Below, one piece after another: positions 47,125-50,820 of a stretch of DNA of 64,000 bases. A program made the position numbers and the translations under genes. The stretch comes from Treponema sp. (GTDB lineage Bacteria > Spirochaetota > Spirochaetia > Treponematales > Treponemataceae). Every line of letters starts with the position of its first letter. Positions within the stretch are counted from its first letter, which is position 1. The notes under the pieces were generated by a model, which saw only the letters and a list, made by a program, of their open reading frames with translations, was not told where the DNA came from and searched no databases. The stretch covers positions 62,001 through 126,000 of the forward strand of contig JAILLQ010000020.1 in NCBI GenBank assembly GCA_024693045.1. Direction: 5' to 3'.

Positions 47125-47799
47125 TTAGATAAGGTGTTCAAGTTCAAGAAGCTTCAAGCTTCTTTCCCTTTCCTCAATAGTCAAAAGCGCCTTTCTTTTT
47201 TCTTCCCTTGCAGCTTCTTCTTTTGCCCTTGCGCTCTCCAGCTCCTTCTTGGCTCTGTCCAGTGCCATAGAAGAACGGGCATTAATTGAAGTTTCTTCGT
47301 ATGCAGGGAAAGTTACTGCACTGACTTCATAAATCCGGCTGATGTCGGTAATTGTTCTTTTTGGTTTGTCTGTGTCGATTCCGTCCCATTTATCACCACG
47401 TACACAGAACATAAAGCTCATTCCACTTACATCTTCACGCTTTACGGCAGAATAAAGATTTTTCGCTTCTGAATTGTTTTCCGTATCAAGATTTACACGG
47501 ATATGCATTCCGTCATCTTTGACTTCCATCTGCATAGTTGAGTTTTTATTGTTGTTTCTGCTTCTGGCAAGAGGCGTCATATCTGTGTTGTGATTAATAA
47601 GGAAGCGCACGTCTTTAAGATCGCATTTGTCGAGGGCGTGCCGTGAAATGACTTCTGTGTAATATCTCATATCTGTTTCACGTTCAAAAACAATCGGTAC
47701 ACCTTCAAGATAAGAACCGTTCTCTTCGTTTTTCAAAGCCCTAAGCTCAAAATCAAAACTTCTCAATTCGTCTGTATCGTTTTTAAAACTTGGTGTCAT
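47125..47799 (-). CDS. HK97-family prohead protease
   Basis: 224 residues. The catalytic His lies in VRFLINHNTDMTPLARS (about residue 70) and the Ser in REDVSGMSFMF (about 125-128). IYEVSAVTFPAYEETSINAR is the family's conserved end of the protease fold; a charged coiled coil follows. Start 33 bp after a TGACTAT motif. Confidence 0.92.
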   Translation of the reverse strand: MTPSFKNDTDELRSFDFELRALKNEENGSYLEGVPIVFERETDMRYYTEVISRHALDKCDLKDVRFLINHNTDMTPLARSRNNNKNSTMQMEVKDDGMHIRVNLDTENNSEAKNLYSAVKREDVSGMSFMFCVRGDKWDGIDTDKPKRTITDISRIYEVSAVTFPAYEETSINARSSMALDRAKKELESARAKEEAAREEKRKALLTIEERERSLKLLELEHLI

Positions 47800-47929
47800 A
47801 ATCCAAAATCTCCATTTTGCATTTTTAAGAGATAGTCAAAAAGATTTTGTAGAAGCCAATTTTTAAGATTTTTACAGTAATGACTTTATTATTGTGAACT
47901 TAAAAATCTATTCAACCGAAAAAAAGATT

Positions 47930-48277
47930 ATGAATACAACTTACGGCATAATCTGGAAAATATTAAACACTCTTGACCTAGCCTTAGATTTAGAATGCGT
48001 TCCGCCCGAAGAATTAAGCGCAAAAAAGTTCAAAATTACAGAAAACCGCTTTCAAAATTATCTTCTAATGCTTCAAAATGCAGGATACGTTGACGGTGTA
48101 GAATGTTCAGAATATATTGACGGTTCAATAAATTTTGACATTTCAAATATTAAAATCACGCTTGAAGGCATTCAATTTTTAATTGAAAACTCAATGATGA
48201 ATAAAATTGCAGTTGCAGCAAAAGAAATCGGTTTGAATGTCGCTGAAGCAGGAATTACGGCTTTTCTAAAACCTTGA
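47930..48277 (+). CDS. YjcQ-like winged-helix protein
   Basis: 115 residues from ATG 47,930 (a GTG twelve codons upstream is also open). ITENRFQNYLLMLQNAGYV...ITLEGIQFLIENSMM resembles the YjcQ family of prophage winged-helix proteins. It lies on the strand opposite to the capsid genes and may be a regulator or moron gene. The C-terminal KEIGLNVAEAGITAFLK could be an amphipathic helix. Confidence 0.65.
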   Translation: MNTTYGIIWKILNTLDLALDLECVPPEELSAKKFKITENRFQNYLLMLQNAGYVDGVECSEYIDGSINFDISNIKITLEGIQFLIENSMMNKIAVAAKEIGLNVAEAGITAFLKP

Positions 48278-48308
48278 CAAAGACACTTAATGAACAGATA
48301 ATACTGTT

Positions 48309-48539
48309 AGCTCACAGTTTCGCTGTGTAGTGAACCAGAAGTAGAAACGTTTCGGACGTTTGCGTTAGGCTTTTCGAAGCATTGTTCGCGTCTACTTCGC
48401 CTTTTGTAAGGAGTTCGATCCATAAAAAGACAGCTACTGATTCCATGGCCTTAGCAGTCATGAACCCCATGAGAAGTAAGCCCTAAGCAATTAGGCAGCA
48501 GTATGGCAAGGTTGTGCAAAAACGCACAACCTTTTTTTT
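48309..48539 (+). ncRNA. structured ncRNA candidate 1
   Basis: TTGACA, 17 bp, GATAAT at 48,274-48,302 is followed by about 230 nt with many hairpins: CACAG/CTGTG with TTTCG loop, GAAGTAGA/TCTACTTC enclosing AACGT/ACGTT, CCTAA/TTAGG. A strong terminator AAGGTTGTGC/GCACAACCTT with T8 ends it. No reasonable reading frame. Shares GTCATG ... AGTAAGCCC with candidate 3. No match to a riboswitch class I know. Confidence 0.65.
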
Positions 48540-48616
48540 AGTATTTTCCTTTTGCCATTTTAAAAGCTTTAATGAAAAGTTCTTGACATTTTTTCCTCCT
48601 ATATTAAACTATAGTT

Positions 48617-48777
48617 ACTCTCGGTTGACCCACGTGGCCAGTCGAGGCGAAGGTCCAGTGTCATGTTTTTCATGCCTGGCGCAGCCTAAATCAGCAATGA
48701 TATGGTTAGAGTGCCGTAATGAGCTCCCGAAAGGGTTGGTGTTCGCCCCCACACGAAAGTAGTGGGGATTTTTATTT
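48617..48777 (+). ncRNA. structured ncRNA candidate 2
   Basis: Promoter-like TTGACA, 16 bp, TAAACT (48,583-48,610), about 150 nt of GC-richer sequence with the hairpin CCAG-tgt-CATG/CATG-c-CTGG, ending in CCCCAC/GTGGGG with a U-tract. The terminator's T-run overlaps the stop codon of the nuclease-domain relic on the other strand, exactly as in candidate 3. No reading frame of note. Confidence 0.65.
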
Positions 48778-48921
48778 TAAAAGTTCTACAGAATAAAATG
48801 TATCTTCATTCTGTTTTGTATTCATAATAGTTATATACGCCATCCCTTGTTTCCCATTTTTAAATTTAAAATTGCTTTTGTATTTTTTAAAGTAAACGTC
48901 TTTTCGCCCATAAAAATCTTC
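48772..48921 (-). pseudogene. relic of a nuclease-domain C-terminus
   Basis: Fifty codons without a start, EDFYGRKDVYFKKYKSNF... to YSVELLK and stop, clearly paralogous to the last 50 residues of the gene at 49,121 (DYYGRKDIKSFRKYEATF... YSLELKK). It is an orphan 3' end with its own convergent ncRNA, so it looks like a displaced alternative C-terminal module. Confidence 0.65.
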
Positions 48922-49000
48922 TTCTTGTTAAGGTTTTTACAGTAATCTTTGCAGTTTCGCTTTATTTGACAAATTAAAGAGACTAATATATTATTCGTTT

Positions 49001-49128
49001 ATACGCATAGCCATGATAAGACTATGCACTGCCTAAACCGGAAACGGCAAGGAAACCCTAATAAGAGTTCGTGAACTTCGTGTGTCATGCGAAGGGTAAG
49101 CCCATATCGAAAGATATGGGTTATTTTT
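49001..49128 (+). ncRNA. structured ncRNA candidate 3
   Basis: Consensus promoter TTGACA, 17 bp, TATTAT (48,966-48,994). The RNA has GCATAG/CTATGC and GCC/GGC stems, GTCATGCGAAGGGTAAGCCC, and a terminator CCCATATC-GAAA-GATATGGG with T-run. It ends on the stop codon of the convergent nuclease domain. About 125 nt. Function unknown; antitoxin or phage regulatory RNA are possibilities. Confidence 0.7.
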
Positions 49129-49605
49129 TTAGCTCTAGTGAATAAAACGAATTTCCATTTTGAACCGTTTCTTTTATAGTAATGTAAACATTGCACGTTG
49201 TTCTGTTTTTTGTCTTAAATGTTGCTTCATACTTCCTAAAACTTTTTATATCTTTTCTTCCGTAATAATCTGGCTCTGATTTTACAAACACAGATTTTTT
49301 ATATAGTAAATTTATCTTCTTGACTGCTTCAAAATGTTGCTTTGCTGTAAAACCGTTTTTAGTAGACATATAAACAGCTTTTCCACTTATTAGCTTTTCA
49401 ATTCCTCCTTTTGTCAGTTTTGCAGATTCTCCTGTATTCTTGTTTGTATATGTTCCAGTTTTCTTTTTGAGTTCCTTTTGAGCCGTTTTTCTAAAATCTC
49501 TTATACTTCCACCCTTAGAAACAAACCTTCCATTTTCATCCCTAGGATGTTCTTCTTCATCCCAGCGGAGTTCTATTCCTCTTCGTCCGATGTATCTTTT
49601 TTTTT
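49121..49605 (-). CDS. polymorphic nuclease/LPD-like domain in -1 frame relative to portal
   Basis: About 160 residues open from the A9 tract inside the portal gene to 49,121. No ATG, GTG or TTG occurs until codon 79 (MSTKNG, 49,369), yet upstream residues are clearly conserved in style (WDEEEHPRDENGRFVSKGG, a motif common before phage-encoded LPD/PBECR-type domains). The C-terminus FTAKQHFEAVKKINLLYKK ... VYITIKETVQNGNSFYSLEL resembles Barnase-EndoU-like phage nuclease domains. So it is either a portal fusion made by -1 frameshifting or one split by a homopolymer indel. Confidence 0.6.
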
Positions 49606-50820
49606 ACCGTCTGAATCGTCGTCTTTGGAATTGTCGCCAAGAGCCTTGTAGTTTTCAAGCATCATGTGTTTGTCTGCATACGGTTCATTTACCTTTGGAA
49701 GATTTTCCATATCCATAATTTGATTGAGCGTATAAATTCCGCTCTGCAATCCTTTGACGTAGCTATCCATTCTGGACTTATAATCAGCACGGAGCATCGT
49801 ATCTGTATCAAACTCTACATAATGAGTTTCCTGAAGTTCATACGGTAAAAGACGGTCCAGGTATTCCTGAATTCTAACAATCCAAGGCGTTAAAGTGTGC
49901 TGCAAGAAGTTTGTATTTGCCTGTTCCATGTTCGTAAACTTTGACGCTTCGCTTCCAAGCATAAAGAGCGGTACTCGGAAAATCTTTGCAATTTCCTTTT
50001 CAGAAAAAGCACGGTTTTCCACAAGCTGACTGTCTGAATTTCCGTTTATATTAATCGGCTGAGCTGTAAGGCCTTTAGAAAGAATGAGCGGTTTATTTGC
50101 GTTTTCTTTGCCACCATAAGCAGAAAGAAGCTGTTCCGTGAGTTTCTGGCTGTCTTCCTTATTCCAGTTCTTGTTTTCAACCGGAACATTTACCATAAGT
50201 TTAGAATGAATTCCGCCGTCAAAATAATTCTGCGTATATTCTTCAAGCTGCAAGCCCGTTTTTGCAGAGTGCGTTGAATATTCCATTGGAGACAAGCCCC
50301 GCAATTTATTGTATTTAATTGCAGGAATATGCAGGACCGCACTTGAATTATATTTATAGGTGCGGCCGTCTACCGTATATTTATAGTACACGTCTTTTTC
50401 GTTATCCATGCAGATTTCAACACACTGCGGATCAAGAGGATACAAAGCCCGTACCGTATAATCAGGATTTCTTTCTACAAAAACAAAAGCATTCCCCTTT
50501 AACAGAAGATGAAGCATAATCTGCTGAATAAAAGAATACTTTGTATCATAAAAATTAGGGTTCCTATGAAGGACTTTTGCAAGAGAAAGATTGTCTGCCC
50601 GTTCCCGTCCGTTTTTGCCTTTTTTGTATACATTAATGCTAAGACATGCGACTGCATCCGCAATAATATTTACGCAAGCATTTACGGTTGAATTTGCCAG
50701 CATTTCGCCTACGCTCATTTTTGGCGAATAATAAAATACAGTGCTGTTTGTATACGCAGAAAGCGGCAGGTATTTTGTATCGTTTTTAATTTTTCTAATT
50801 TCAAGTCCTAACAGTTTCAT
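49573..50820 (-). CDS. HK97-family portal protein
   Basis: 415 residues: MSVGEMLANSTVNACVNIIAD, LLLKGNAFVFVERN, the KYNKLRGLSPMEYS loop and FGI/SEKEIAKIFRVPLFMLG are characteristic. The C-terminal tail is very acidic with a KKK encoded by A9, where a -1 shift would enter the nuclease-like frame. Normal portals are 380-430 residues, so the zero-frame product is complete by itself. Confidence 0.92.
   Translation of the reverse strand: MKLLGLEIRKIKNDTKYLPLSAYTNSTVFYYSPKMSVGEMLANSTVNACVNIIADAVACLSINVYKKGKNGRERADNLSLAKVLHRNPNFYDTKYSFIQQIMLHLLLKGNAFVFVERNPDYTVRALYPLDPQCVEICMDNEKDVYYKYTVDGRTYKYNSSAVLHIPAIKYNKLRGLSPMEYSTHSAKTGLQLEEYTQNYFDGGIHSKLMVNVPVENKNWNKEDSQKLTEQLLSAYGGKENANKPLILSKGLTAQPININGNSDSQLVENRAFSEKEIAKIFRVPLFMLGSEASKFTNMEQANTNFLQHTLTPWIVRIQEYLDRLLPYELQETHYVEFDTDTMLRADYKSRMDSYVKGLQSGIYTLNQIMDMENLPKVNEPYADKHMMLENYKALGDNSKDDDSDGKKKDTSDEEE

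Follow-up and report, generated by a model that had tools for sequence, protein, structure and literature searches.

Structured RNAs facing LPD3 and PBECR3 domains in Treponema prophages: a possible polymorphic-toxin cassette with RNA in the immunity slot

Introduction

What kind of partner belongs to a nuclease-like prophage domain whose stop codon lies within the terminator of an RNA gene transcribed from the opposite strand? The question is raised by a prophage locus in the window, that is, the whole stretch of 64,000 nucleotides from a Treponema sp. contig (JAILLQ010000020.1, positions 62,001 to 126,000) that was analysed here. A first-pass annotation of this DNA had described a duplicated unit, with a minus-strand frame ending at 49,121 and again at 48,772 and a plus-strand RNA terminating on each stop codon, and had likened it to polymorphic toxins and their orphan C-terminal modules, an RNA taking the place of the immunity gene. 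The named relatives used for comparison were obtained by protein search and are rumen and gut Treponema, including the type strain of T. porcinum; several of the sequences are MAG contigs and possibly chimeric.

Organization of the RNA array

The window carries a prophage head operon on the minus strand, consisting of terminase, portal gene (49573-50820; Pfam Phage_portal, E 6e-87), toxin domain and head protease (47125-47799), and the plus strand from the toxin end to the protease holds a YjcQ-family gene (47894-48277) and four RNA modules, all downstream of the portal gene. RNA C (48966-49130) has a promoter at 48966-48994 (TTGACA-17-TATTAT), would start at about 49001 and ends in a hairpin (49099-49122) followed by a T-run, overlapping the stop codon of an LPD3 domain. 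RNA B (48583-48777) would start at about 48616 from a promoter at 48583-48610 (TTGACA-16-TAAACT), and its terminator (hairpin about 48746-48767, T-run to about 48773) lies on the stop codon of an orphan LPD3 C-terminal fragment (minus strand, 48772-48927) that reads QEEDFYGRKDV at one end and FYSVELLK before the stop. The arrangement is present at both 49,121 and 48,772, as first described, and the two frames are homologous to each other. The array is longer than the two copies then recognized, however, with further plus-strand modules at about 48,309-48,415 and 48,408-48,540. The first of these, RNA A1 (48274-48415), is of the PBECR3 type, has a promoter at 48274-48302 with a start at about 48309, and retains only a few codons of its toxin; the second, A2 (48408-48540), has no promoter of its own, a terminator at 48508-48533 and a lost toxin. 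Altogether, three of the four modules (A1, B and C) have their own sigma-70-like promoter, A2, B and C each have a clear terminator, and A1 has a hairpin with a short T-run, while the partners are one apparently intact LPD3 domain, one LPD3 fragment and two lost toxins. The promoters named here and below are consensus matches.

Relatives of RNA C were found in G055 (100% identity) and G108 (85%), and relatives of RNA B in L120 (87%) and L060 (73%), all adjoining LPD3. Stretches matching A2 occur in L114 (86%) and L126 (82%), where the RNA faces an LPD3 domain, and A1 is 79% identical to the RNA facing a PBECR3 end in L057. No Rfam family passed the threshold in the window or in the LPD3 RNAs tried, ARAGORN found no tRNA, and no conserved ORF was found within the RNAs. 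At locus L169, an extra upstream RNA has its own promoter and a core resembling the window class, and its matching toxin is absent.

The YjcQ-family gene might be taken for a conventional immunity gene, with the RNAs unrelated to the toxin, given that it adjoins the array on the same strand and recurs in L129, L171/L060 and L126. The remaining LPD3 loci searched, among them L120, L167-L170 and L172, yielded no YjcQ gene, whereas the RNAs are far more regular and lack a conserved ORF. Immunity through a protein is therefore barely credible here, and YjcQ, being present in some LPD3 loci only, was set aside as an immunity protein.

The toxin frame as a portal extension

The first-pass annotation regarded only the second copy as lacking a start. 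That copy is indeed an orphan fragment, but the first is equally without a start codon. The toxin frame of the first copy (minus strand, 49121-49603) comprises the leader KKRYIGRRGIELRWDEEEHPRDENGRFVSKG and the LPD3 domain (about 49142-49507), ends in FYSLELKK, and opens immediately behind a stop that falls at an A9 run (minus strand, 49597-49605; T9 on the plus strand) within the final codons of the portal gene. It is in the -1 frame relative to the portal gene, whose 3' end contains this slippery run and overlaps the leader frame. Because a frame without a start opens after a stop at such a run, its sequence suggests that it is probably an extension of the portal protein, made through programmed -1 frameshifting or transcript slippage on a minority of subunits. 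The same run and geometry occur in L057, L168, L170, L171 and L114. A portal search of viral contigs yielded no more than three relatives, none of which showed an LPD3/RNA unit downstream.

Predicted RNase activity of LPD3

The C-terminus that had been called a nuclease on first pass belongs to Pfam LPD3 (PF18798), passing the curated cut-off with 69.7 bits against 27 (E 3e-19); the RNase activity itself is only predicted. A structure model built from 26 homologues reached a mean pLDDT of 90, and its closest structural neighbours are the CDI toxins 7m5f (Z 6.2, rmsd 3.9 over 96) and 6cp9 (Z 5.9, rmsd 3.5 over 95), followed by BrnT 3u97 (Z 5.2, rmsd 3.3 over 74), although matches of this strength (Z about 6) are modest. 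The invariant residues of LPD3 include N75-G76-F77 and H82, and T134 is nearly invariant. In the study of polyvalent proteins (PMC5512222), the BECR active site is described as a histidine in the N-terminal helix and a serine or threonine near the C-terminus. The residues H82 and T134 fit this pattern, and the model is compatible with the helix and following sheet of four to five strands expected of a BECR-fold RNase. LPD3 is accordingly predicted from the model to be a BECR-fold RNase, an activity that is inferred and has not been shown, there being no activity data. With one query, LPD3 was not found in plasmids.

Toxin exchange and remnants in a sister prophage

The prophage of G055/L057 has a portal and leader nearly identical to those of the window, yet its toxin end is PBECR3 (E 3.6e-9), and the stop codon of this PBECR3 sits in the terminator of its own facing RNA. 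A PBECR3 relative in G164 is likewise faced by an RNA, which shares the core motif. Behind PBECR3, G055 retains the LPD3 tail of the window as a remnant beside RNA C, identical at 130 of 130 bases, and after RNA C come a second LPD3 remnant and then RNA A1. Two traits of polymorphic toxins are met by these loci, namely a constant part (portal and leader) with an exchangeable end (LPD3 in the window, PBECR3 in G055) and orphan modules downstream (the LPD3 fragment with RNA B, A1 and A2 in the window; the remnants with RNA C in G055). A protein-coding immunity gene is not among them, the RNAs having no conserved ORF and YjcQ occurring in some loci only. The exchange of toxin ends lends support to the earlier likening of the locus to orphan modules with an RNA in the immunity slot, and since the toxins decay while the RNAs persist, the pattern is the one expected for immunity factors.

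The RNA could also be a working part of the nuclease, such as a guide, cofactor, substrate or packaged decoy, or else an anti-defence RNA that is delivered or expressed together with the nuclease, and not an antidote at all. Host RNAs, for instance CRISPR RNAs, are proposed in PMC5512222 as possible targets of PBECR domains, and the cognate RNA classes vary, as targets might. RNAs kept after toxin loss nevertheless fit an antidote better, and a separate promoter directed against the late operon points to expression at times other than the late phase, so that a working part is considered quite improbable.

Facing promoters across LPD3 loci

The association was counted over 55 LPD3 domains, drawn from viral contigs as well as Treponema relatives, with 408 other ORF ends from the same loci and 275 shuffles as controls. 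A promoter matching at least 10 of 12 positions faces the domain end in 40 LPD3 cases (73%), compared with 18 of the other ORF ends (4%) and six shuffles. A promoter together with a terminator was found at 28 of the 55 LPD3 ends versus 3 of the 408 other ends (Fisher 2e-26) and none of the shuffles, so the arrangement noticed in the window exceeds chance. The LPD3 domains are related, and the p-value is only a guide because the counts are not independent; moreover, several patterns reported here were both found and tested on overlapping sequence sets. Facing promoters also occur at LPD3 domains embedded within long ORFs (L119, L123 and L132), and the RNA gene in these cases lies antisense inside the ORF; at L181, the LPD3 locus of the cultured strain T. 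porcinum ATCC BAA-908, a facing promoter is likewise present. The refuting condition named in the first-pass annotation, homologous nucleases without neighbouring RNAs, applies to a minority only: about a quarter of LPD3 domains, for example L008 and L012, lack a facing promoter of at least 10/12. As far as putative promoters and terminators can tell, LPD3 domains in general have an RNA partner, and PBECR domains do so too. Co-divergence of RNA and toxin was not significant overall (Mantel p 0.10); nonetheless, CTD1/RNA C and L167 are each other's nearest neighbours, as are CTD2/RNA B and L120.

Conserved structure of the facing RNAs

Fourteen LPD3-facing RNAs have in common a three-way junction whose short linker is mostly GUNNC. 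Standard pairs fill 98% of its pair cells; after 3' strands are exchanged among the sequences, the share is 67% on average and 81% at most. Two-sided changes occur at 12 of 14 pairs. This test leans towards structure because the stems were anchored by hand. A looser three-way-junction descriptor matched 22% of shuffled sequences and was dropped in favour of the pair counts on hand-anchored stems. In the RNA class of the window, 26 of 36 predicted pairs show two-sided changes. In class II, identity falls from 94% in the RNA to 81% in the LPD3 gene and 37% in the upstream flank, and an antisense reading frame would be disrupted by the loop indels of 2-3 nt. It is not evident that the RNA classes belong to one family.

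PBECR3 and the skipping-rope RNA

In Treponema, a skipping-rope RNA (RF02924) comes after stand-alone PBECR3 genes, encoded on the same strand and preceded by a promoter at the PBECR3 stop. Among 14 skipping-rope copies in 118 genomes, nine lie directly after a PBECR3 ORF, which is damaged in one case, and another two after a PBECR3 tail remnant. This order was recorded at L246-L258, L262 (NZ_AP025289 26162-26630) and L264 (KX077891 42735-43201); pTS1, a plasmid of T. saccharophilum, carries the pair, and so does Streptococcus phage phiJH1301-1. The skipping-rope RNA is absent from the window and has no match to the RNAs there.

These pairs bear on the main rival explanation, a type I-like control in which the RNA pairs with the 3' part of the toxin-bearing late mRNA and causes its decay or blocks its expression in the lysogen. 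The late mRNA spans the whole array, and the facing RNAs are all antisense to the operon transcript, each with an overlap at a toxin 3' end; convergent type I pairs overlapping at their 3' ends are also known on prophages, such as yonT/SR6 in the available part of PMC5848175. Antisense pairing would require no conserved folds with two-sided changes, however, and would not account for orphan RNAs that outlast their toxin. The LPD3 layout would permit pairing, but the same-strand layout of stand-alone PBECR3 and skipping-rope RNA makes antisense action on that toxin mRNA impossible. Antisense control is, on these grounds, regarded as unlikely.

Some further loci were noted in passing. At L221, an RNA resembling the LPD3-facing ones (CCGTCCAATAAAACTGCG...) adjoins a PBECR3/skipping-rope pair, with no LPD3 seen there. 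The Streptococcus satellite phage Javan99 (L263; MK448664 6514-9145) has a skipping-rope-like RNA after a 136-aa ORF without a Pfam match, and Enterocloster phages (L265; OP172754 44973-48001) show a skipping-rope-like match of 29 nt at 93%, with no adjoining annotated PBECR gene. At L061, the same cargo spot is occupied by a sequence on the opposite strand, immediately upstream of the RNA, that resembles the C-terminus of a HicB-type antitoxin, an impression gained by eye only.

Polyvalent proteins of Helicobacter

In Helicobacter polyvalent ORFs (L163-L166, L267 and L270), extended -10 motifs (TGTGGTATAAT-like) number 27 on the antisense and 3 on the sense strand. An antisense extended -10 located 66-139 nt past the domain was found for 15 of 17 nuclease domains (LPD3/PBECR) versus none of 10 other domains (p 8e-6). 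Four proteins of this count were the discovery set, and three later additions give 4/6 versus 0/6. In Helicobacteraceae PBECR3 loci, the motif is present in 12 of 29, compared with 3.5% of random antisense windows and none on the sense strand; it is missing in the other 17, and also at the PBECR3 of KHP30 and the C-terminal PBECR3 of an H. pullorum prophage. Two H. pylori RNAs antisense to HP1116, HPnc5970 and HPnc6000, are listed in a review (PMC8322730), jhp1044 is given as a PBECR polyvalent protein in PMC5512222, and one record in the present analysis is annotated as HP1116/jhp1044-like.

That the RNAs merely tune transcription, their promoters and terminators insulating late operons or cargo genes without any role in trans, would agree with promoters opposing the late operon and terminators placed right at the toxin ends. 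It would not explain the conserved folds, an RNA conserved more than the adjoining gene, the specificity for nuclease over other domains, or a skipping-rope partner on the same strand, and its chance of being correct seems very slight.

Proposed mechanism

The reading preferred here, and held to be somewhat probable, is a polymorphic-toxin cassette of temperate phages, in which a virion-borne RNase toxin is held in check by a cognate structured RNA acting in trans. What can be read directly from sequence is the cassette swap and its remnants, the promoters and terminators, the covariation, the statistical RNA-LPD3/PBECR link and the frameshift geometry. Slippage at the A9 run would place a BECR-fold RNase domain (LPD3, or PBECR3 in the sister phage) on a minority of portal proteins, its RNase activity being inferred, and a toxin on the portal C-terminus should travel in the virion into the next host, a delivery that is likewise an inference. 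The lysogen would make the cognate RNA from its own promoter on the opposite strand, ending on the last codons of the toxin, although expression of these RNAs in Treponema is presumed without expression data. In trans, the RNA might then neutralize the toxin, with binding of the RNase as the likeliest route; such binding is a best guess drawn from the conserved folds, from orphan RNAs that persist and from one layout that excludes antisense action, and neither toxicity nor binding data exist. A new toxin-RNA cassette would recombine at the leader, after which the old toxin decays and the old RNA stays, possibly keeping immunity against sibling phages. With each toxin tail, live or decayed, faced by an RNA, phages may shield their hosts from their own toxins by means of RNA.

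A wider proposal, to which slightly less than even chances are given, is that phage BECR-type nuclease domains (LPD3 and PBECR1-3) form one broad toxin class with RNA immunity factors. Each domain, even where a polyvalent protein has several, would have its own structured RNA gene, often antisense inside the toxin ORF, and such RNAs, including the skipping-rope RNA and the antisense RNAs of H. pylori HP1116 (whose start positions in HP1116 were not compared), would be antidotes collected by lysogens during toxin swaps. RNA immunity of this kind, if true, offers a function for the uncharacterized skipping-rope RNA and for the H. pylori RNAs antisense to HP1116 (PMC8322730), explains how a virion can carry several RNase domains without harm to the phage's own host, and yields a simple, testable rule, namely that each LPD3 or PBECR domain should end at a facing RNA.

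Comparison with known systems

Among the literature matches listed, none links LPD3, PBECR or skipping-rope RNA to an RNA-toxin pair. The same domain families, head-module context, portal fusions and jhp1044 mosaics are found in the polyvalent PBECR/LPD3 proteins (PMC5512222), whose description, in the parts available, does not mention RNA partners and leaves LPD3 without a function. The skipping-rope RNA is likewise a small RNA, placed directly after stand-alone PBECR3 genes, but on the same strand. The yonT/SR6 pair, as far as the accessible text of PMC5848175 goes, likewise has an opposite-strand RNA overlapping the toxin 3' end; it involves a small toxin gene and antisense pairing, whereas the window has conserved folds, a large nuclease domain and orphan RNAs.

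Type III systems (ToxIN, CptIN and TenpIN) also combine an RNase toxin with a small structured RNA. Their RNA is a repeat array located upstream in the same operon and processed by the toxin (PMC5086642), and their toxins are of the ToxN, CptN and TenpN families, whereas the window has LPD3 or PBECR3 domains and single-copy RNAs facing the toxin 3' end. Since toxin family, orientation and repeats differ, the system is not type III by membership, though it would work like one. The nearest functional relative among the literature compared is AbiF-RCd22 of Clostridioides difficile (PMC12373285), an experimentally shown pair whose RNA, encoded upstream on the same strand, shares a transcript with abiF; its toxin belongs to the Abi_2 family, and there is no virion link or cassette swap. 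The MuF polymorphic toxins of temperate phages (PMC5576092) resemble the window in carrying variable toxin ends on head-module proteins adjoining the portal gene. Their proposed immunity is a small downstream ORF, whereas in the window it would be an RNA, and the carrier would be the portal itself through frameshifting. In the cited literature, polymorphic toxins come with protein immunity and RNA antitoxins are known from a few stand-alone systems; the proposed cassette, if real, would join the two.
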